Of a DNA stretch of 27,203 nucleotides, positions 10,916 to 21,695 are shown in pieces (the stretch's first letter is position 1; each line of letters starts with the position of its first letter). The notes under the pieces are model-generated. The model saw only the letters and a list, made by a program, of their open reading frames with translations, ran no database searches and was not told where the DNA came from. Source of the DNA: a virus; the IMG/VR virus record IMGVR_UViG_3300037010_000548, positions 1 to 27,203 of that record. The stretch is one strand, 5' to 3'. The position numbers were made by a program, and so were the translations under genes.

Positions 10916-11836
10916 CTATTTGTTTAAGTTATGTATCACTCGTACAAAGTACGATAGCTGTGCTGTGGTGGGGACGAGTACCGCTGAGTCGTTAGACGCT
11001 ATACCTTTACGCAGTTCTGTGACAAGTACCTCCTGTAGTTCGTCTATAGTCATACCGCATTTCACATTGCCGCTCATGTGCCGCGCTACGTCATATCGGT
11101 TCCATGTACCACGCACCACTTTGCTGCACTTCGGCTCCATCAGTACGATGGTTTCTACTACTGGGGTGAGTAGCGCGAGTGCCTCCTTAACTATTTTGCT
11201 AGTCCCTTTGGTTGGACGCGTGGCTGGTAGTAGACCGCCGCTAGCTACACCAATCTGCAGCTCACCATCTACTATGTCACAGTTTACGGTCAGCCACTTG
11301 GTGCATGTGTTGTTTCCTATGCTCAGTTCACGGTATGACACCAACTTATCGAGTTTGTATTTGGCAGGCGCTCGGTTCAACCCACATAAGTCCCACAGGG
11401 TGTCTGATACCGCCCGTGACTGTGTGCTGCACCTGTACGTGTCTTCAACTGATATGGTATATGTTGTGCTGTATTTGGTTAATCGAACATTAACTCCGCA
11501 TATATTGGTGAGTAGTGTGTACCCTGGCTCTGTAATTTGTAGTACACACCGGTACCCTGATATACAGCCGATAAGGGCTGACCCTCCCACTGCACTGGTA
11601 AGTTTGGTGTATGCGCTTCTAGCTGTCTGCTCATGCTTTGTACGGATGATTTCCCGATACAACAATGCTTCCACCAGCAAGTCGGGGTTACCGAATATGT
11701 GCCCCCTAGCTACACTATCGCGCCACGTGCGGGAGGTCGCACCTTTACTCGTTACAGCCATGTATGGCGCGAGTTTAAGATTAGCCCTAACAGCCTTATT
11801 GGTTGTTAGCTTCTCGTCCCAGGCTGGTATGTTCAT
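10916..11836 (-). CDS. Unrecognised 306-residue protein
   Basis: A soluble basic protein of unknown function. The segment NPDLLVEALLYREIIRTKHEQ (about 50-70) is a clear helix. The middle is beta-rich with many threonines and cysteines (YTLLTNICGVNVRLTKYSTTYTIS). The last 80 residues are again helical. The start overlaps the stop of the 122-residue gene (ATGA). It is part of the MoxR/metallopeptidase-VWA gene set, and nothing in the sequence points to catalysis. Confidence 0.75.
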   Translation of the reverse strand: MNIPAWDEKLTTNKAVRANLKLAPYMAVTSKGATSRTWRDSVARGHIFGNPDLLVEALLYREIIRTKHEQTARSAYTKLTSAVGGSALIGCISGYRCVLQITEPGYTLLTNICGVNVRLTKYSTTYTISVEDTYRCSTQSRAVSDTLWDLCGLNRAPAKYKLDKLVSYRELSIGNNTCTKWLTVNCDIVDGELQIGVASGGLLPATRPTKGTSKIVKEALALLTPVVETIVLMEPKCSKVVRGTWNRYDVARHMSGNVKCGMTIDELQEVLVTELRKGIASNDSAVLVPTTAQLSYFVRVIHNLNK

Positions 11837-13344: not shown

Positions 13345-14454
13345 TCATGGTCTCCATACGCCCATTCTTCTACTTACATACCGTTTGGTATCCACCAGCT
13401 TAGGTACGAGCACCTCGTGGGTGACGCCTCTTACGGGCGGGTGGGTAGCCCACTCGATTATCTCATTAACCTCCTCCGTGATCTCCTCTGCCATGGTGTT
13501 GGAGATGTAAGGAGTTATCGGCGTTACGAGTGCAGCGATACGAGACCGCACATCCCCAGCATATTGCCTCCACTGACCCGGGGTAGGCTCATATCGCGCA
13601 ACACCCATGGTTACCATGGTGTCGAATATCTCCTGCAGTTGCGCCGACAATTTATCAGCCACCTCCTGCGTAGGTTTGTCCTTCTTATATTTCATCATAT
13701 CGTTCCGAGTGGCGTTACGCGCCCACTCTGGGTTTGGGACGTACCTTACAATCGTTCCAGACATCTGTGGCTCGTTGAAGTCCTCCCGAGATGGTATGTA
13801 GTAGAACGAGGGAAACCGAGGGAGTTCGCACCCAATCGGTACCCCTGTCTCTGCCCACATGAATGGGGTATGCAGTGAGCGTCGCTCGTTACCACCGTCA
13901 GCGGAGTATTTGGTTTTTCCTAGCGTGACCTCCATCAAGTTATACAATAGCTGGCTCATCGACCCGTCTACGTTTACCACTCGGTCAGACCGTACGGACA
14001 GTCTTATCACGTTCGACCCCGCCGTGTGTATTGATGTCAACGTAATACGGTTGAACCGTGCGGATACCCTTGCATCGTTATCTGCCAGTAGGCAGGTAAA
14101 GTCTACCCGACCTAACGACGCTTCTGCATTTATACCCCCACTGCACACAGCACCCCAATGAACCTGCGCGTGGGAAATAGGTATGCTCCCTTCTCGCAAC
14201 TTGATCGCCGTAGACACATGTTCACGGATTAGTATCGCCCACGCGAGCACGTGGGGGTGGTACATAAGCGGTGAAAAATGCCGTGTTTTAGTGCTCGCGC
14301 TAGATGCCAATAACCTTTTGAACACGTCCACCACGCCATCAGGCAGGTGTGCCCTTATTGCCTCTGGCATACGATCCATATAGTTGGATGCGCGGAGTGC
14401 GCTATCGAACTCCCACCCTGACACCGCGTCCGATATGCTTACTTCATTGCCCAT
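13345..14454 (-). CDS. Unrecognised 369-residue protein between MoxR and VWA genes
   Basis: I place the start at the ATG at 14454 because AGGAG lies 7 nt upstream. This overlaps the MoxR gene end by 16 nt. A longer frame to 14499 lacks such a site. The N-terminal half mixes helices with a beta-rich section (HTAGSNVIRLSVRSDRVVNVDG). The C-terminal half has a long helical segment (PTQEVADKLSAQLQEIFDTM, later EEITEEVNEIIEWA) and a basic end. I do not recognise the family. Its place between an ATPase and its usual VWA partner makes it a likely member of the same complex. Confidence 0.78.
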   Translation of the reverse strand: MGNEVSISDAVSGWEFDSALRASNYMDRMPEAIRAHLPDGVVDVFKRLLASSASTKTRHFSPLMYHPHVLAWAILIREHVSTAIKLREGSIPISHAQVHWGAVCSGGINAEASLGRVDFTCLLADNDARVSARFNRITLTSIHTAGSNVIRLSVRSDRVVNVDGSMSQLLYNLMEVTLGKTKYSADGGNERRSLHTPFMWAETGVPIGCELPRFPSFYYIPSREDFNEPQMSGTIVRYVPNPEWARNATRNDMMKYKKDKPTQEVADKLSAQLQEIFDTMVTMGVARYEPTPGQWRQYAGDVRSRIAALVTPITPYISNTMAEEITEEVNEIIEWATHPPVRGVTHEVLVPKLVDTKRYVSRRMGVWRP

Positions 14455-15491
14455 TGGTTGTCTCCTGCCCATTGTTGGAATTTTTTGTTCGTCGCGCACA
14501 TCACGTTGGCACGTAACATACCGATAAACGCAACCGCTGCTACCTCTAGGTGCATACGGTTACCGTAGGTGACCAGCGTTTCCACAATAGGTGCCAAATC
14601 TTTTGTCGGTACCCCGCGAACTTTATCGCTCATGCCGTAGGCTATCATTAGCTGTGCGGGAGTAGCAGTTGGCACCGTTGCCTTGTCTGGTGTAGCCATG
14701 ATGCTCTGCCATGAAGGTAGTTGGTCAGCTAGGTCGAGGTATGCGGACAGGTCAGCAGCAGCAGACGCCCCTAGGATACCCGCAACGGCTTTTGTTGTGC
14801 TGGAACGCCCAAGGGTACTACGCTTACTGATAACAACGCTGGCTTTAGATAAGGAGCGAGGGGACACGAATTTATCCGTGCGTGTCTTCGGGTCGAAAAC
14901 ATAGGGGTTTTGTGGAGACCCTGCTGGCTCCATTGTGTGTGGGAATTGGTTCACAAATGCGCGGACTACAGGGTCAATGCCGTTGTTCTCTGCCCATAGC
15001 AACCACTGTTCGGCAGTCGGCTTGGCGAGTGGCAGTGTACCGACTCGGTTGTTCATGTGTGCAGGGAATACATCCCCAACGCCGTCTTGTGTACGGTTGC
15101 CCGTCGCAAATACGATTGATCCCTCGGGCAACGTGTATGCGCCGATCACGTGATCTAACAGCAGGCGGGTGAATAACAAGCGAGTTACGTTACTAGACTT
15201 GGGTAATTCGTCCAACATGATGAGCTTTGGACGTGTATTGTCCCCGCCCCACATAGCGTTCGTGGCAAACCGAGACGTGCCCGCTTCCACGAATGGAAGC
15301 TGGATGTCAGGGATGTCCATCGTAGGGCAATCAACGTAGATGGGTTGGTAGGATGGGAGGGTAGAAGCTAGGCGTTTGAGCAGATCAGATTTGCCGATTC
15401 CCGGCTCGCCTGTGATGATGTATGTTACGTCAGTGCCTGTTGCGGCGATGGTGTTTACGACTTCGTCGTGTGTCATGTCAGTAGTGTACAT
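14439..15491 (-). CDS. MoxR-type AAA+ ATPase
   Basis: A 350-residue AAA+ ATPase starting at the ATG at 15491, which has GGAG 7 nt upstream. Motifs: Walker A GEPGIGKS (28-35), Walker B IMLDEL (91-96), sensor 1 ATGNR (129-133) and MNNRV near 146-150 in the position of the arginine finger. The G-E-P-G-I-G-K-S and A-T-G-N patterns place it with MoxR/AAA_5 ATPases. These form hexamers and usually act with a VWA protein to remodel or load metal or cofactors into targets, and the VWA partner is encoded two genes downstream. The gene follows a long structured leader. The target of the complex in this phage is unknown. Confidence 0.9.
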   Translation of the reverse strand: MYTTDMTHDEVVNTIAATGTDVTYIITGEPGIGKSDLLKRLASTLPSYQPIYVDCPTMDIPDIQLPFVEAGTSRFATNAMWGGDNTRPKLIMLDELPKSSNVTRLLFTRLLLDHVIGAYTLPEGSIVFATGNRTQDGVGDVFPAHMNNRVGTLPLAKPTAEQWLLWAENNGIDPVVRAFVNQFPHTMEPAGSPQNPYVFDPKTRTDKFVSPRSLSKASVVISKRSTLGRSSTTKAVAGILGASAAADLSAYLDLADQLPSWQSIMATPDKATVPTATPAQLMIAYGMSDKVRGVPTKDLAPIVETLVTYGNRMHLEVAAVAFIGMLRANVMCATNKKFQQWAGDNQWAMK

Positions 15492-15624
15492 GAGCGTTCT
15501 CCAGTTAATGTTTAAGTTAATGTTAATGTTGCCACCAACCCACATGACACTCGTAGGAATGCCTTGTGGGTTGGTAGGACTGGTTTGATACCCAGATGGA
15601 TGCCAAACCAGAACGTTTGGGTAC
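15492..15624 (-). promoter_or_regulatory. Structured leader between acb2 and the MoxR gene
   Basis: This gap holds overlapping stem-loops. CTGGTTTG (15580-15587) can pair with CAAACCAG (15604-15611). CCAAAC (15603-15608) can instead pair with GTTTGG (15615-15620). These two structures exclude each other. A third perfect 11-bp stem pairs 15534-15544 with 15565-15575 across a 20-nt loop. The last part contains three AACATTAA-type repeats before GGAG. No T-run follows any stem, so this is not a simple terminator. It looks like a regulatory leader for the MoxR cassette. Confidence 0.6.
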
Positions 15625-15849
15625 TTAGAAAGAAGTTGGTTTAGCTACGCTACGAACCATTGCCATAATACCAGTTTGGCAGTCCGTTCGTCCGATACTT
15701 ACCCAACGTTTATCCGTTGAGTCTACCGACAACAAACGCTGCGTTAGTGCATCGAGTGTTTGCCCGACTTGTTTAATATCGTTCATCAAGTCAATTTCTT
15801 CTTGACTTAGTTCGCGGTATCCTGTGATTAAACGATGTTGATTTTCCAT
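15625..15849 (-). CDS. acb2: Acb2-family anti-CBASS protein
   Basis: A 74-residue protein with the pattern I know from the Acb2 (Acb2/Tad1-type) family of phage cyclic-nucleotide sponges. It has HRLITGYRELSQEEIDLMN (5-23), a helical hairpin, DKRWVSIGRTDCQTGIM (46-62) and a VRSVAKPTSF end. Tyr11 and Lys26 occur at the positions I recall as cyclic-dinucleotide contacts in Acb2 of Pseudomonas phage PaMx33. Known members bind cyclic di- or trinucleotides made by CBASS and so stop effector activation. It is one base after the tad2-like gene in transcription order and about 130 nt before the MoxR gene. The ligand range here is not known. Confidence 0.88.
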   Translation of the reverse strand: MENQHRLITGYRELSQEEIDLMNDIKQVGQTLDALTQRLLSVDSTDKRWVSIGRTDCQTGIMAMVRSVAKPTSF

Positions 15850-16350
15850 TTAGTTCTCCTCTACCACGTACCAATCAGAACTTAGAAGGTCTGTCTGGCT
15901 CGCCAACCAAGGTACGTTTGCATTAATGTGCGAGATGGGCGCACTGTCACTTGCAGGGGTAGTCGGATACTGCATATACAGGTACGGCAACGTCATATCT
16001 GAGCCTTCCGTCGGTTGATGCACAGCGACTTTCAGACCTTTACCGTTCCAGCCGCGACGTGCGATACTGCGCCCTTGCTTCGCTAGCTCTAACGCTAGCC
16101 CGAAAGGTAAATTACCATGCAGGTCACGGTACGCGTCGGCGAACACTTGTTCTGGTGACCATGAGACGTACCCATCGTGACCTTTAACATTTGATTCCTC
16201 ACCTACACGAGGTTCATACTCGACTAGGTATCCTGCGTCATCGCCGCGTTCGTTTGCGGGTAGTGCCCACCCACGGTACTCATTATATGCTGCACGGGTC
16301 ATCGCGGTAGCCTTGATGCTCTTTAACCCAATGTGCGTTGTCTTGAACAT
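15850..16350 (-). CDS. Tad2-domain (DUF2829) protein, putative anti-Thoeris
   Basis: About 166 residues from the ATG at 16350, with AAGGAG 7 nt upstream. A longer frame runs into the tRNA and is rejected. Two parts are visible. Residues 3-78 (THIGLKSIKATAMTRAAYNE ... GHDGYVSWSPEQVF) match a domain often seen in phage proteins. Residues 83-165 match DUF2829/Tad2: FGLALELAKQGRSIARRGWN, GKGLKV and the signature VPWLASQTDLLSSDWYVVE. Tad2 proteins bind signalling molecules derived from NAD and so block the Thoeris defence. Fusion with the N-terminal domain is known but its role is unclear. It follows the tRNA and precedes the Acb2 gene, forming an anti-defence pair. Confidence 0.87.
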   Translation of the reverse strand: MFKTTHIGLKSIKATAMTRAAYNEYRGWALPANERGDDAGYLVEYEPRVGEESNVKGHDGYVSWSPEQVFADAYRDLHGNLPFGLALELAKQGRSIARRGWNGKGLKVAVHQPTEGSDMTLPYLYMQYPTTPASDSAPISHINANVPWLASQTDLLSSDWYVVEEN

Positions 16351-16376
16351 TATGAATCTCCTTTGTAGGATTTGTA

Positions 16377-16453
16377 TGGTAGGACTGGTTGGGCTTGAAC
16401 CAACGACCAATCGATTATGAGTCGACTGCTCTGACCAACTGAGCTACAGTCCC
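16377..16453 (-). tRNA. tRNA-Ile(CAT), probably lysidine-type
   Basis: A 77-nt cloverleaf. The 7-bp acceptor stem is GGGACTG/CAGTCCT with a terminal G-T, the D stem is GCTC/GAGC, the anticodon stem is GTCGA/TCGAT with loop CTCATAA, and the T stem is GTTGG/CCAAC with loop TTCAAGC. Then come A and an encoded CCA. The anticodon is CAT. The anticodon arm and following bases (CGACTCATAATCG, TTGGTCG) match bacterial minor tRNA-Ile, whose C34 becomes lysidine to read AUA, better than elongator tRNA-Met. It is the first product of block B and would help read AUA codons. Confidence 0.88.
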
Positions 16454-16460
16454 AAAGATT

Positions 16461-16494
16461 GTGAGAAACCGCCGTGTCGCAGGTAATTTCTCAC
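16461..16494 (-). promoter_or_regulatory. Hairpin in the tRNA operon leader
   Basis: GTGAGAAA and TTTCTCAC form a perfect 8-bp stem across an 18-nt loop, between the promoter and the tRNA. It includes part of a 32-nt element shared with the leader at 19677-19708, where a different hairpin forms. It could help tRNA 5' processing or control transcription. Confidence 0.5.
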
Positions 16495-16505
16495 TTTCTA
16501 GGTAT

Positions 16506-17093: not shown

Positions 17094-17714
17094 TTACGCC
17101 TCCACCTCCCATGAACGCCCTGTCTTCTGATAATCGTGCCCGTTGAGGTAGTATTCCTTAGCTTCTTCCTCGCTCAGAAGCAGCTCCTCAAGTTCCCACG
17201 TGTGCCCGAGCTTCGGTTTACACATCCACTCATGTACAACCTTTGTGACGGGTTTGGCGCGGTACTGGACATCTGTGTCCCAATCGGGGTTGGCTTGCTC
17301 TACCCAGGCTCCTAGGGCGTGTACGAATGCTTGAATCTTCGCACCAGCGTTGTGCGCTTGGATTAAGGTATCGTGAGGGTGAAGGCGGTATGTGATGCGC
17401 TCGTCCCACGATGGTTCAACCCATGCTCCATTGCTCACACAATCAGCATACGCGCCATACATGGCTGGTACTGTGCATTGCCATGCTTGCCCCTCGTGGT
17501 AGGCGTCAATCAAGGCTTGGTGGGTGTGCACTGGGGTGACTTCAGTCCAAACGTCTTTGTCGTACAGCTCCCATAAAACGCCCATACCGGTATCCCCAAA
17601 CCGAAACGGGTTGGCAAATCTTTCATCGTAGTAAACCACGCTGCCTGTGCTTAATCTGAAACGTTTACCCTCGATAAGGGCACGGGTCATGTGCGCTTTG
17701 CTATTAAATTTCAT
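17094..17714 (-). CDS. Repeat-containing hypothetical protein, paralogue of its neighbour
   Basis: A 206-residue protein in three parts. Residues 1-60 align closely with the neighbouring 78-residue protein (shared GKRFR, YD-x-RFAN-x-FRF, WTEV). Residues 65-110 (IDAYHEGQAWQCTVP ... WDERITYRLHP) and 117-155 (IQAHNAGAKIQAF ... WDTDVQYRAKP) are two copies of a repeat ending in Y-R-x-x-P. This repeat is common in uncharacterised phage proteins and probably mediates binding. The final 50 residues are acidic (ELEELLLSEEEAKEYY). The ATG lies inside the end of the paralogue. The function is unknown. Confidence 0.78.
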   Translation of the reverse strand: MKFNSKAHMTRALIEGKRFRLSTGSVVYYDERFANPFRFGDTGMGVLWELYDKDVWTEVTPVHTHQALIDAYHEGQAWQCTVPAMYGAYADCVSNGAWVEPSWDERITYRLHPHDTLIQAHNAGAKIQAFVHALGAWVEQANPDWDTDVQYRAKPVTKVVHEWMCKPKLGHTWELEELLLSEEEAKEYYLNGHDYQKTGRSWEVEA

Positions 17715-17940
17715 GATTGTCTCCTTCAGTTGTAAAAAGTGTTTCTGGTTCGGGGGTATGCCCGACTTCAGTCCAAATATCTTGGTCGAATAACTCGTAT
17801 AAGACCCCTATATCGGTGTGTTCAAACCGAAAAGCGTTAGCGAATCGTGGGTCATAGTGGATTACACCGCCTGTGCCTACTCTGAATCGTTTACCCGCAA
17901 GTAGCTCCGTAGTAATGTCGATTTTGTTAGCGAATCGCAT
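17704..17940 (-). CDS. Small paralogue of the 206-residue protein
   Basis: A 78-residue protein matching the first domain of the following gene: ITTELLAGKRFRVGTGGVIH, YDPRFANAFRFEHTDIGVLY and DIWTEV are shared with conservative changes. AAGGAG stands 6-8 nt before the ATG. It overlaps the next gene by 11 nt. Tandem duplication followed by loss or gain of the Y-R-x-x-P repeats explains the pair. The function is unknown. Confidence 0.78.
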   Translation of the reverse strand: MRFANKIDITTELLAGKRFRVGTGGVIHYDPRFANAFRFEHTDIGVLYELFDQDIWTEVGHTPEPETLFTTEGDNHEI

Positions 17941-19132: not shown

Positions 19133-19266
19133 TAGTGCGCCACAACTGGGTCTAATAGGGCGACTACGATGAGTACGGCGGATACTACGAATAGGAACAC
19201 CATCCAGACGATGTCTGATGCGTCTGGTGGCTCGTTTGCTTCTTTGTGTGGGTCTGGGGTGATCAT
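19132..19266 (-). CDS. 44-residue single-pass membrane protein
   Basis: The ATG at 19266 overlaps the previous stop (ATGA) and its TAA overlaps the next start (TAATG). The first 18 residues are acidic and proline-rich (ITPDPHKEANEPPDASD), followed by one hydrophobic segment (IVWMVFLFVVSAVLIVVALL) and a short tail. The precise overlaps on both sides support a real gene. The function is unknown. Confidence 0.68.
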   Translation of the reverse strand: MITPDPHKEANEPPDASDIVWMVFLFVVSAVLIVVALLDPVVAH

Positions 19267-19616
19267 AGGTACGCTCCTATATTGCATTGAATTAAGCTGG
19301 CGGTGTGTTCTGTGTATGGGAACAGTTCTTCTGGGTTGGGGACGGCACTTGATAGATGCACCTGTGGTGTGTCGCCACGGAAGGCATAGACGATGGTGCG
19401 CCCTAACGCCATGAGGGGTAATAGTGCATCAAGTTTGAGCTTTAGGTCAACCCATGGTTTGATGTGTGTTTTTGATTTTGGCACTGGTCGATACTCACCG
19501 TTTTTGTGGTGAGGGGAATATACAGGCAAGGGAGCTTTTGGAAGCTCCTTTAAGATGAGGGGTTCGTAGTGGCGGCGATATGGTGCTGCCTTGCCTATGC
19601 GGGTGGCTACTATCAT
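19263..19616 (-). CDS. Hypothetical protein, first gene of block A
   Basis: A 117-residue basic protein (RIGKAAPYRRHYEPLILKEL, PVPKSKTHIKPWVDLKLKLD) of unknown function. It is the first gene behind the promoter at 19703-19731. Its ATG is preceded by GGAG, and 13 nt upstream ends a hairpin next to AACATTAAC, a leader arrangement also present before two rightward genes at 20723 and 21054. That shared leader suggests common regulation of these three genes. Confidence 0.72.
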   Translation of the reverse strand: MIVATRIGKAAPYRRHYEPLILKELPKAPLPVYSPHHKNGEYRPVPKSKTHIKPWVDLKLKLDALLPLMALGRTIVYAFRGDTPQVHLSSAVPNPEELFPYTEHTASLIQCNIGAYL

Positions 19617-19629
19617 GGGGTACTCCAGT

Positions 19630-19649
19630 GGTCATTGACCGTTAATGTT
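19630..19649 (-). promoter_or_regulatory. Leader element: AACATTAAC plus AAT-loop hairpin
   Basis: On the minus strand AACATTAAC (19649-19641) is followed directly by GGTCAATGACC (19640-19630), a 4-bp stem with an AAT loop. Exactly 13 nt then separate it from the ATG at 19616. Two rightward leaders have the same layout with a different stem sequence. Confidence 0.7.
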
Positions 19650-19676
19650 ACAGAAAGTAGGGTCATTACTTTGTTT

Positions 19677-19731
19677 CAGGTAATTTTTCACTTTCTAGGT
19701 ATATTATACCATAGGGAGGGTAAATTGTCAA
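19677..19731 (-). promoter_or_regulatory. Perfect-consensus leftward promoter with shared downstream element
   Basis: TTGACA (19731-19726) and TATAAT (19708-19703) on the minus strand are 17 bp apart. The 32-nt stretch 19677-19708, covering the -10 box and first transcribed bases, differs at one position from 16480-16511 at the other block promoter. AGAAAGT (19652-19658) and ACTTTCT (19690-19696) can pair in the leader. Confidence 0.87.
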
Positions 19732-20194
19732 GTAGTTGGCAATTTCCAGGCAAAACCCACGTAAGTCGTTGATTTTTTCATCTGGAAATGAATCTGGAAA
19801 TTGGGAAACCTTTGAAATCAACGAGTTGCGACGAATTTCCGCGTTTCCAGCCAAAAAAACATAATACAATATATTGAGCGCTAAATCTTTGTATAATTAT
19901 ACAGGTGTCTCTATATATATCTAGTTTATTTTATCGGAAACCTGGAAATTGATGTAAGTAACTAGATAAATATGGAGTTTTTTTTCCAGGTGGTTTCCAG
20001 ATTTGCAAGTATTTTACGCAAGTCCTTTACAGTCAAAGACTTGCATATGTCAAGTCCTTTAAATTTCCAGATTTGGAAATGTCAAGTCCTTTAAACTTCC
20101 AGGCAAGATGAGAATCGTTCGCAGATTCACCCCAAATTTCCAAATCTGGAAATTGCAAGTCCTTTCCAAAGCAATAAGCGTGCCAACTTTTTTA

Positions 20195-20226
20195 CTATTT
20201 TTCACGCGAAAATAGGTGAAAAATAG
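20195..20226. repeat. Perfect 11-bp inverted repeat
   Basis: CTATTTTTCAC (20195-20205) and GTGAAAAATAG (20216-20226) are exact reverse complements around a 10-nt spacer. Neither side is followed by a T-run on the transcript, so it is not an intrinsic terminator. It is more likely a protein-binding site or a single-strand initiation hairpin. Confidence 0.75.
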
Positions 20227-20239
20227 CTATTCTGCCCTC

Positions 20240-20285
20240 TTGACAGCAGGGGCTCAGAAAGTTATAATGACGCTAGTCATTATAA
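20240..20285 (+). promoter_or_regulatory. Rightward consensus promoter with palindromic operator
   Basis: TTGACA (20240-20245) and TATAAT (20263-20268) are 17 bp apart. The -10 box is the left arm of a perfect inverted repeat, TTATAATGAC-N4-GTCATTATAA (20262-20285), well placed for a repressor. The next gene starts more than 400 nt downstream, so the transcript may be a noncoding RNA or an origin primer. Confidence 0.78.
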
Positions 20286-20635
20286 AAACGAAAAATTTGA
20301 AATCTGGAAACGCGGAAATGTAAAGAACTTGCCTCCTCCCGCGTCAGTCTGCGTGCGTAGTATGTAATGCGTACCCTCCGCCTTGAAAACCTCGGGGGCT
20401 ACGCACCAGAAACTACGCAGATGTGTCAATTTTGACCGTTGCAGGATTTTTGGAATTGTCAATTTTGACACGGCGTGGTGTGCCAAGGGGAGGTGGCTGC
20501 AGCTCTCACATCAGTCGCTCCCGCATCAGTTTGTAGTACCCTATATGCACACGCGCGTACGTGGGCGAGTCAAAATTTTGACATGTGCAGGATTTTTGAG
20601 ATTGTCAAAAATAAATAAAATAGTTTAGAAAATAC
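20286..20635. other. Noncoding stretch with paired operator-like repeats
   Basis: Short open frames here have no ribosome-binding sites or family signals. Two composite repeats are seen. GTCAATTTTGAC (20425-20436) is followed after 4 nt by GCAGGATTTTTG. GTCAAAATTTTGAC (20569-20582) is followed after 4 nt by the same 12-mer. Each is then followed by ATTGTCAA after about 5 nt. A further GTCAATTTTGAC is at 20458-20469. These look like binding sites for a regulator upstream of the early promoter at 20636. Confidence 0.6.
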
Positions 20636-20709
20636 TTGACACGATATGCCTGCGCCCTTATAATAGGAAGCGTCAACAAGACAAACAGCAACATTAACGC
20701 CCAATGGGC
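20636..20709 (+). promoter_or_regulatory. Early promoter and leader, first copy
   Basis: TTGACA (20636-20641) and TATAAT (20659-20664) are 17 bp apart. The leader has GTCAACAAGACAAA (20672-20685), AACATTAAC (20690-20698) and the hairpin GCCCAATGGGC (20699-20709), then 13 nt with AAGGA to the ATG at 20723. Nearly the same unit precedes the next gene. Confidence 0.87.
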
Positions 20710-20722
20710 AGAAGGACTATAT

Positions 20723-20953
20723 ATGAACGATCTATTAGTAGCAGACAAAAGCATGATGGTGCAGGTGAAACGTGCGATTCGCATTATCGTGCGTGATTGT
20801 TTGGATTACTACCCTTTGAATGGGGAGTGGGCAACCGTTGGCGTAGGCGTATGGATTAACACGCCGCGCCGCAATAATGAATTTGTTTTAATGCTCGCAG
20901 ATAAAGAAGTCGGCACTGTCAATCTCGCATTATTGCACAATCGTAAAAAATAA
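20723..20953 (+). CDS. Small early protein of unknown function
   Basis: A 76-residue protein from the ATG at 20723, preceded by AAGGA 8 nt upstream. A longer frame to 20636 would translate the promoter and is rejected. It has a helical start (MMVQVKRAIRIIVRDCLDYY) and a beta-rich second half (TVGVGVWIN, EFVLMLADKEVGTVNLALL). It has its own consensus promoter and faces rightward beside the probable origin, so it is probably an early gene, perhaps host-directed. No family is recognised. Confidence 0.72.
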   Translation: MNDLLVADKSMMVQVKRAIRIIVRDCLDYYPLNGEWATVGVGVWINTPRRNNEFVLMLADKEVGTVNLALLHNRKK

Positions 20954-20965
20954 TTTGTAAAATAC

Positions 20966-21040
20966 TTGACACGGGGGAACTCGTGTCATATAATAGAACC
21001 GTCAACAAGACAAAACGTTTAACATTAACGCCCAATGGGC
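20966..21040 (+). promoter_or_regulatory. Early promoter and leader, second copy, with operator
   Basis: TTGACA (20966-20971) and TATAAT (20989-20994) are 17 bp apart. GACACG and CGTGTC form an inverted repeat around 8 nt from the -35 box into the spacer, a possible operator absent from the first copy. The leader repeats GTCAACAAGACAAA (21001), AACATTAAC (21021-21029) and GCCCAATGGGC (21030-21040), then 13 nt to the ATG at 21054. Confidence 0.87.
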
Positions 21041-21053
21041 AAAAGGAATCATC

Positions 21054-21608
21054 ATGAACACTTTAACAATCGCTACCCCTGTACTATCGTCACAAGACAT
21101 CCGCGCTGGTGAACTTGCCAGCGAACTTGCCGCAAAACTTATGGGCTTGGCTAAGGGCGCGTCTGCCCTTATGCTTGAGACCGCGCAAGCATGGGTTAAA
21201 ACGCTTGATAAAGCGCATCTAATAACCGCGCATGGTTTGGCAGTTATGCGCATCACAGAAGCCCACAAGGGCAGTGAGGCGGCACAACGTCGAGTGACTA
21301 GCACTATGCTTGGTCAGCTCAAGACGGTACTAACAGCCGTCGAAGATGGGCGTGCGAACAGCGATAAAGTGGCACGCGCTAAGAACTGGTCTACCTTGTT
21401 GACCTATTGCACGCCTAAGCGTGAAGCCGACGAGAGCGAGCCGCTCGACGTGATTAGTGACCGCCTTATTACCCTATGCCTATTTGCGATTAAAAACGAA
21501 ATGAGTTTGTCCGACCTTGAGGACGAGCTAACCAGCGCATGGGATACCGCGCAAGCCGAGATGAACCGTAAGGCGGCAAGCAAGAAAGAGACTGACGACG
21601 ACGAATAA
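21054..21608 (+). CDS. Early protein of unknown function, 184 residues
   Basis: An almost wholly helical soluble protein with AAGGAA before the ATG. It contains long alanine- and leucine-rich helices (GELASELAAKLMGLAKGASA, LITAHGLAVMRITEAHKGSE) and a basic middle (SDKVARAKNWSTLLTYCTPK). It ends in a highly charged tail (KKETDDDE). It has its own promoter and ends at tandem terminators, so it is transcribed separately. Its high helix content and charge would suit a DNA- or protein-binding early factor. I do not recognise a family. Confidence 0.78.
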   Translation: MNTLTIATPVLSSQDIRAGELASELAAKLMGLAKGASALMLETAQAWVKTLDKAHLITAHGLAVMRITEAHKGSEAAQRRVTSTMLGQLKTVLTAVEDGRANSDKVARAKNWSTLLTYCTPKREADESEPLDVISDRLITLCLFAIKNEMSLSDLEDELTSAWDTAQAEMNRKAASKKETDDDE

Positions 21609-21627: not shown

Positions 21628-21652
21628 AGCCCCCCATAATGGGGGCTTTTTT
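21628..21652 (+). terminator. Intrinsic terminator 1
   Basis: AGCCCCC and GGGGGCT form a 7-bp stem with a 6-nt loop, followed by TTTTT. It lies 20 nt after the stop of the 184-residue gene. Confidence 0.9.
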
Positions 21653-21671
21653 GTGTCTGAAATAATAATGA

Positions 21672-21695
21672 AGCCCGCTATATGTGGGCTTTTTT
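21672..21695 (+). terminator. Intrinsic terminator 2
   Basis: AGCCCGC and GTGGGCT pair (one G-T) around TATAT and are followed by a T-run. It stands in tandem with the first terminator, insulating the early gene from the packaging module. Confidence 0.88.

Follow-up and report, generated by a model that had tools for sequence, protein, structure and literature searches.

The 27,203 bases of the window make up an entire IMG/VR virus record. Portal and DNA polymerase comparisons, at 24-34% identity among the matches listed, place the virus as distant kin of HMO-2011-like podoviruses and Rhizobium phage RHph_TM3_14A. The leftward genes include those for an SNF2 helicase, a PD-(D/E)XK nuclease, a DNA polymerase, NrdB and ThyX, along with genes for a DUF2201 metallopeptidase/vWA-like protein and a MoxR-like ATPase, and the rightward genes include those for TerL and the portal. 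The leader element that is the subject of this study lies in and around the divergent region separating these two gene sets. The divergent region also carries iteron-like repeats at 19990-20170 (CAAGTCCTTT; TTTCCAGATTTGGAAA), which are possibly a replication or regulatory site. On the minus strand, a tRNA-Met gene (anticodon CAT) occupies 16377-16453 and has a promoter, TTGACT-17-TATAAT, with a palindrome over the -35 box. On the same strand, within 17094-17940, the adjacent genes 17714 and 17940 have the leader TACAACTGAAGGAG in common and look like tandem paralogs, the likeness of their proteins having been judged by eye.

Before the genes at 19616 on the minus strand and at 20723 and 21054 on the plus strand, AACATTAAC is followed directly by an 11-nt hairpin and then by exactly 13 nt to the ATG, a layout that had been predicted from the sequence and that a base-by-base check of all three leaders found to be correct to the base. 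In the leftward unit, all on the minus strand, a sigma-70 promoter with 12/12 consensus positions (TTGACA-17-TATAAT; 19703-19731) precedes the motif (19641-19649), the hairpin GGTC-AAT-GACC (19630-19640; -2.5 kcal/mol when folded alone, with pair probabilities of 0.97-0.99) and the 13-nt SD segment ACTGGAGTACCCC (19617-19629), which leads into the first leftward gene (19263-19616; 117 aa, assigned to no family by family scans). On the plus strand, gene 20723 (20723-20953; 76 aa, likewise without a family in these scans) is preceded by a 12/12 promoter at 20636-20664, the motif at 20690-20698, the hairpin GCCC-AAT-GGGC at 20699-20709 (-4.6 kcal/mol alone; pair probabilities 0.98-1.0) and the SD segment AGAAGGACTATAT at 20710-20722. 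Gene 21054 (21054-21608, plus strand; 184 aa, again without a family) follows a 12/12 promoter at 20966-20994 that contains the dyad GACACG-N8-CGTGTC at 20968-20987, the motif at 21021-21029, the same GCCC-AAT-GGGC hairpin at 21030-21040, which is also found in the related contig L004, and the SD segment AAAAGGAATCATC at 21041-21053; its product is 80% identical in another related contig, L005. Modelling gave low-confidence structures for the 76-aa and 184-aa products (mean pLDDT 64.2 and 47.0, respectively).

Between 15400 and 22300 there are four promoters matching TTGACA-17-TATAAT at 12/12 positions, and one of them precedes each of the three leaders. The fourth, within 20240-20285, has no gene directly downstream and carries a perfect 10-bp dyad, TTATAATGAC-GCTA-GTCATTATAA (20262-20285), over its -10 box. 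The 20723-21054 unit ends in two tandem terminator hairpins at 21630-21690.

The motif recurs before the gene for the MoxR-like AAA ATPase (PHROG 1297 by family scans; 14439-15491, minus strand), where it had been described as lacking the hairpin. The recurrence holds and no stable stem is predicted, but the hairpin register is occupied: AACATTAAC at 15524-15516 is followed by TTAA-ACA-TTAA (15505-15515) and then by 13 nt to the ATG at 15491, which reproduces the 9+11+13 geometry. This register was obtained by ungapped counting, as a MAFFT alignment introduces a gap into the MoxR copy. The TTAA-ACA-TTAA stem is predicted not to fold, at +3.3 kcal/mol and with pair probabilities of 0.05-0.09. 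Its sequence and predicted fold mark the MoxR leader as a fourth, degenerate copy that keeps the register and whose A-T stem is expected to be unstable. Further copies of the motif lie at 15522-15530 and 15504-15512 in this leader, and a strong hairpin (CTACCAACCCACA...TGTGGGTTGGTGG; 15530-15582, minus strand) stands directly before the repeated motifs.

Over both strands of the window there are seven exact AACATTAAC sites, namely those of the three hairpin leaders, the three MoxR copies and a plus-strand site at 11486 inside the leftward gene 10916-11836. The combination of a 4-bp Watson-Crick stem, an AAT loop, 13 nt and an ATG was found at the three known leaders and nowhere else in the window on either strand. 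Rfam covariance models gave no match at the leaders and four matches elsewhere in the window up to E 5. At starts without a hairpin, a AACATTAAC-like motif ends 13 nt (13312), 12 nt (the third copy at 15491), 16 nt (9079) or 18 nt (11836) before the ATG.

Departure from chance was assessed with 40 gene starts, hand-picked from the ORF list. A hairpin with a 4-bp stem and a 3-nt loop ends 5-25 nt upstream of five of these starts, and in four of the five (19616, 20723, 21054 and the MoxR start at 15491) it ends exactly 13 nt before the start. In 3000 dinucleotide shuffles of 39 starts, with the duplicate 21054 excluded and corrected positions used for starts 8611, 14436 and 16353 in the hairpin and offset tests, identical loop and spacing in at least two genes arose three times and identical hairpin spacing in at least three genes 15 times. 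Because none of the 3000 shuffles placed one 9-mer at a common offset before three or more of the 39 starts, the motif at its fixed offset is not explained by chance. A looser and less secure claim is that 7 of the 40 starts have a AACATTAAC-like 9-mer (at most one mismatch) in the 50 nt before them: when the choice of motif is allowed for, some 9-mer reaches 7/40 in 3 of 300 shuffles and at least 6 in 33 of 300. The trinucleotides most enriched upstream of the 40 starts are AAC, AAA, CAA and ACA, the last by 1.6-fold; both the ACA counts and the 7/40 count rest on a start list in which 8611, 14436 and 16353 are a few bases off.

Sequence comparison revealed that the leaders of 20723 and 21054 are one duplicated promoter-leader cassette, with promoter hexamers, the CGTCAACAAGACAAA stretch, motif, hairpin and AAGGA in common and with a 17-nt promoter spacer that is mostly different between the two. 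On this comparison, the two plus-strand copies are an old promoter-leader duplication and hence non-independent. The motif and hairpin are identical at 20/20 bases between the diverged cassettes, which argues for constraint on the element. The compensating stem changes of the original prediction are real, in that GGTC/GACC and GCCC/GGGC differ on both sides in two of four pairs while 12/12 cells remain paired. They amount to a single independent comparison, because the plus copies are duplicates, and with only three rows the covariation cannot be significant; it was matched by 60 of 500 shuffles.

The contig L004 differs from the window at 27 of 6494 positions and has no difference in its leader copy, an identity that says little because the two are so close. 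Nine of the 27 differences fall in the promoter region at window positions 20956-20988. Here, five of the eight centre bases of the dyad GACACG-N8-CGTGTC differ, with both arms and both promoter hexamers intact, a pattern of conservation suggesting that the dyad may be an operator. At 21630-21656, six further differences lie in or beside the first terminator, including the paired change C21634A/G21642T, and the L004 version of this terminator looks, by eye, like the second terminator flipped.

The spacing of the element bears on the level at which it would act. The motif always ends 24 nt before the ATG, whereas the gap between the -10 box and the motif is 25, 26 and 53 nt in the three leaders. 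A distance that is constant to the ATG and variable to the -10 box favors action in translation initiation over a DNA site tied to the promoter. The hairpins are predicted to form in the three putative transcripts, with pair probabilities of 0.97-1.0, and the predicted probability that the motif is unpaired is 0.92 for 19616, 0.84 for 21054, 0.89 for MoxR and 0.42 for 20723 in a 93-nt fold. Local fold energies of the leaders are ordinary (z of 0.50, -1.28, -0.73 and 0.38). Read on the opposite strand, both plus hairpins were listed as terminator-like, but the stem has five pairs and the tail TTAATGTTAA is broken; action as antisense intrinsic terminators appears unlikely. The proposal of a functional element near the ribosome-binding site is thus supported by the fixed 24 nt to the ATG and by the preservation of the element while the duplicated cassette diverged.

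Pattern searches of IMG/VR returned at least 119 stretches for AACATTAACNNNCAATGNNN, at least 119 for the promoter combined with AACATTAAC and at least 118 for the motif-hairpin-SD-ATG pattern. At loci other than L001-L003, four pairs were present in 8 of the 120 matches listed for the last pattern. Three of these eight (L004, L163 and L245) represent the same contig of this virus. Three matches with one common A-U/G-U stem placed 14 nt before the ATG (L338, L437 and L441) and two with weak stems (L328 and L342) were rejected as instances. A search with AACATTAACGNNCAATGNNC found 10 stretches, three of which have both free pairs able to pair; one (L163) is this virus, and the other two (L447 and L450) lie inside long ORFs and were therefore set aside as chance. 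A single match among GTDB contigs was also rejected; it falls within an ORF in a Bacteroidetes MAG, and its stem is imperfect. Among the matches listed, some unrelated phages have AACATTAAC immediately ahead of an SD but no hairpin; these were left uncounted, since such placements arise easily in A/T-rich leaders. DNA searches of phages and plasmids gave no usable match.

Near relatives were sought through TerL, the gene-21054 product and the portal, which identified L004, L005 and L006 only; other portal relatives are 32-38% identical among the matches listed, and a search with MoxR found no near relative. L004 begins at window position 20710, L005 one base before the ATG of 21054 and L006 inside terL. 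The L004 and L005 contigs thus begin at the repeated leader, as if the assembly had broken there. In 78 other loci (L247 and L251-L327, the latter mostly within 8 kb of the portal), the only 14-mers common at the same offset before SD-ATG starts lay inside coding-type tandem repeats of three loci (L268, L280 and L284). Before 936 SD-ATG starts of distant relatives, AACATTAAC was not enriched, with two matches and a rank of 241 among 756 permutations. The near-relative, GTDB and other-loci searches, and IMG/VR among the matches listed, found no element beyond this virus, the only other carrier being L004, a near-identical strain with an unchanged leader copy. The further examples in relatives on which the original prediction was to stand or fall were therefore not found outside this virus; the absence from near relatives tests little, because L004-L006 are fragments, none of which starts ahead of the leader.

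Overall, the sequence and its predicted folds describe a real, small and compact leader element that probably has a translational role, a function that we infer. The reading that we favor, with a probability of about 0.45, is that of a compact split ribosome-binding site, composed of an ACA-containing upstream contact motif, a looped-out hairpin and the SD. Transcripts would start at the consensus promoters upstream of the leaders, and AACATTAAC would serve as a single-stranded, ACA-containing contact motif (enhancer or standby) for the 30S subunit, touched by the ribosome perhaps via S1. The 4-bp hairpin between motif and SD would fold out as a spacer, a role proposed because looping out its 11 nt would shorten the single strand from motif to AUG from 24 nt to 13 nt, near the 12-18 nt that separate motif and ATG in hairpin-less genes of this genome. 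The element would thereby raise translation of the genes that open the two divergent units, or set its level. The transcript starts, the contact between AACATTAAC and the ribosome, the spacer role and the effect on translation are all what we infer. The order of single-stranded region, hairpin, SD and AUG is present in the sequence and predicted folds of the three leaders, apart from the partly paired motif of 20723, and is not predicted for MoxR; two, four and three ACA triplets lie between the predicted start and the SD in the three leaders.

Several observations weigh against a split ribosome-binding site. The MoxR leader keeps the geometry even though its stem is predicted not to form, the motif of 20723 is predicted to be only 42% unpaired in its 93-nt fold, and the predicted energies of whole-leader folds are unremarkable. 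By analogy, the ACA precedent of yifK would not predict a fixed spacing. Furthermore, some 9-mer attains the 7/40 starts in a few shuffles, and the starts of distant relatives show no enrichment of AACATTAAC.

Alternatively, motif and hairpin could be the operator of a phage or host RNA-binding regulator that controls the two divergent units jointly through translation of their first genes, a reading that we consider unlikely. The same element does stand on both units, and a stem that varies in sequence while pairing, AAT loop and spacing stay constant would suit a protein reading shape and loop; the operators of T4 gp43 and gp32 are similarly placed upstream of the start (PMC3014915). However, no RNA-regulator family was found in 10 proteins scanned with Pfam and PHROGs, 10 more scanned with Pfam and 10 more scanned with PHROGs, many of which belong to no family, and the structural operon in L004-L006 has no further copy of AACATTAAC. 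The MoxR copy, which lacks a stable hairpin, counts against this operator as well, and a version in which one phage-made or host protein switches MoxR together with the first genes of both units at once seems a shade less likely again; it would imply a translational regulon built from a 9-nt motif and an 11-nt hairpin. For the dedicated phage translation regulator that had been suggested, these analyses yielded no support, and its binding site is retained as a candidate reading. Unlikely to much the same degree as the RNA operator is that the element is a relic of promoter-leader cassette copying, with parts common by descent and a hairpin of little or no function. The 20723 and 21054 cassettes are clearly paralogous and the minus promoter is weakly similar too (80% over 20 nt), but a relic would hardly remain identical at 20/20 bases beside a diverged spacer, nor would the third, divergent copy be expected to keep its pairing through two double changes.

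A DNA site is improbable. Both stem variants can be read as perfect 5-1-5 palindromes, GCCCA-A-TGGGC and GGTCA-A-TGACC, bound by a dimeric protein downstream of the promoter, in which case the paired changes would reflect dyad symmetry; dyads also occur in two plus-strand promoters (20262-20285 and 20968-20987). The half-sites nevertheless differ (GCCCA versus GGTCA), the spacing from the promoter ranges over 28 nt against a constant spacing to the ATG, and no promoter-like site was found near the MoxR copy (15400-16500). Least probable by far is a role for an out-of-frame AUG upstream of the start, which the hairpin would conceal or exploit and which could open a short overlapping reading frame. 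Through CAATG, an ATG spans loop and stem in all three hairpins, yet it has no SD before it, the peptides predicted from it differ on inspection by eye, and it is absent from the MoxR copy.

If the element is a split ribosome-binding site, the phage would tune translation of its strongly promoted first genes with a very small module that can be reused and whose hairpin adjusts how far the motif lies from the SD. It would offer a compact natural test of upstream contacts and spacing in initiation, as well as a portable leader part. Its wider importance is modest, because the element so far comes from one virus species.

The closest parallel in order of parts is E. coli thrS, where contact region, hairpin, SD and AUG succeed one another and where ribosome binding requires 24 nt of single strand ahead of the hairpin, although thrS has large domains and a long hairpin (PMC3936740). 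The phage element, in contrast, consists of a 9-nt motif and an 11-nt hairpin with a fixed spacing common to several genes. Domain 2 of thrS also binds ThrRS. In yifK and dppA, ACA triplets just upstream of the SD increase translation (PMC3879156), and the phage leaders resemble these genes in having an ACA-containing single-stranded sequence upstream of the SD. The available part of that work concerns enterobacterial genes that are targets of the sRNA GcvB, does not require a strict position for the yifK motifs and describes no intervening hairpin (PMC3879156). Hairpins that cut an effective distance within a phage translation initiation region are known from T4 genes 38 and 25, where the hairpin lies between SD and AUG and shortens their spacing (PMC3014915), unlike that of the phage element, which lies between an upstream motif and the SD. 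In the T4/RB69 gp43 operator, too, a hairpin precedes the ribosome-binding site of a phage gene, and this operator differs in serving a single autoregulated gene, with a 16-18-base hairpin-loop, a UAAC loop and a known protein ligand (PMC3014915). The phage element stands before several genes and has an AAT loop. The T7 gene 10 enhancer differs from it in sequence. That enhancer resembles it as an upstream enhancer element adjoining the SD of a phage leader, with no intervening hairpin described in the portion available (PMC8748333). No literature on this element was found in open-licence PMC.
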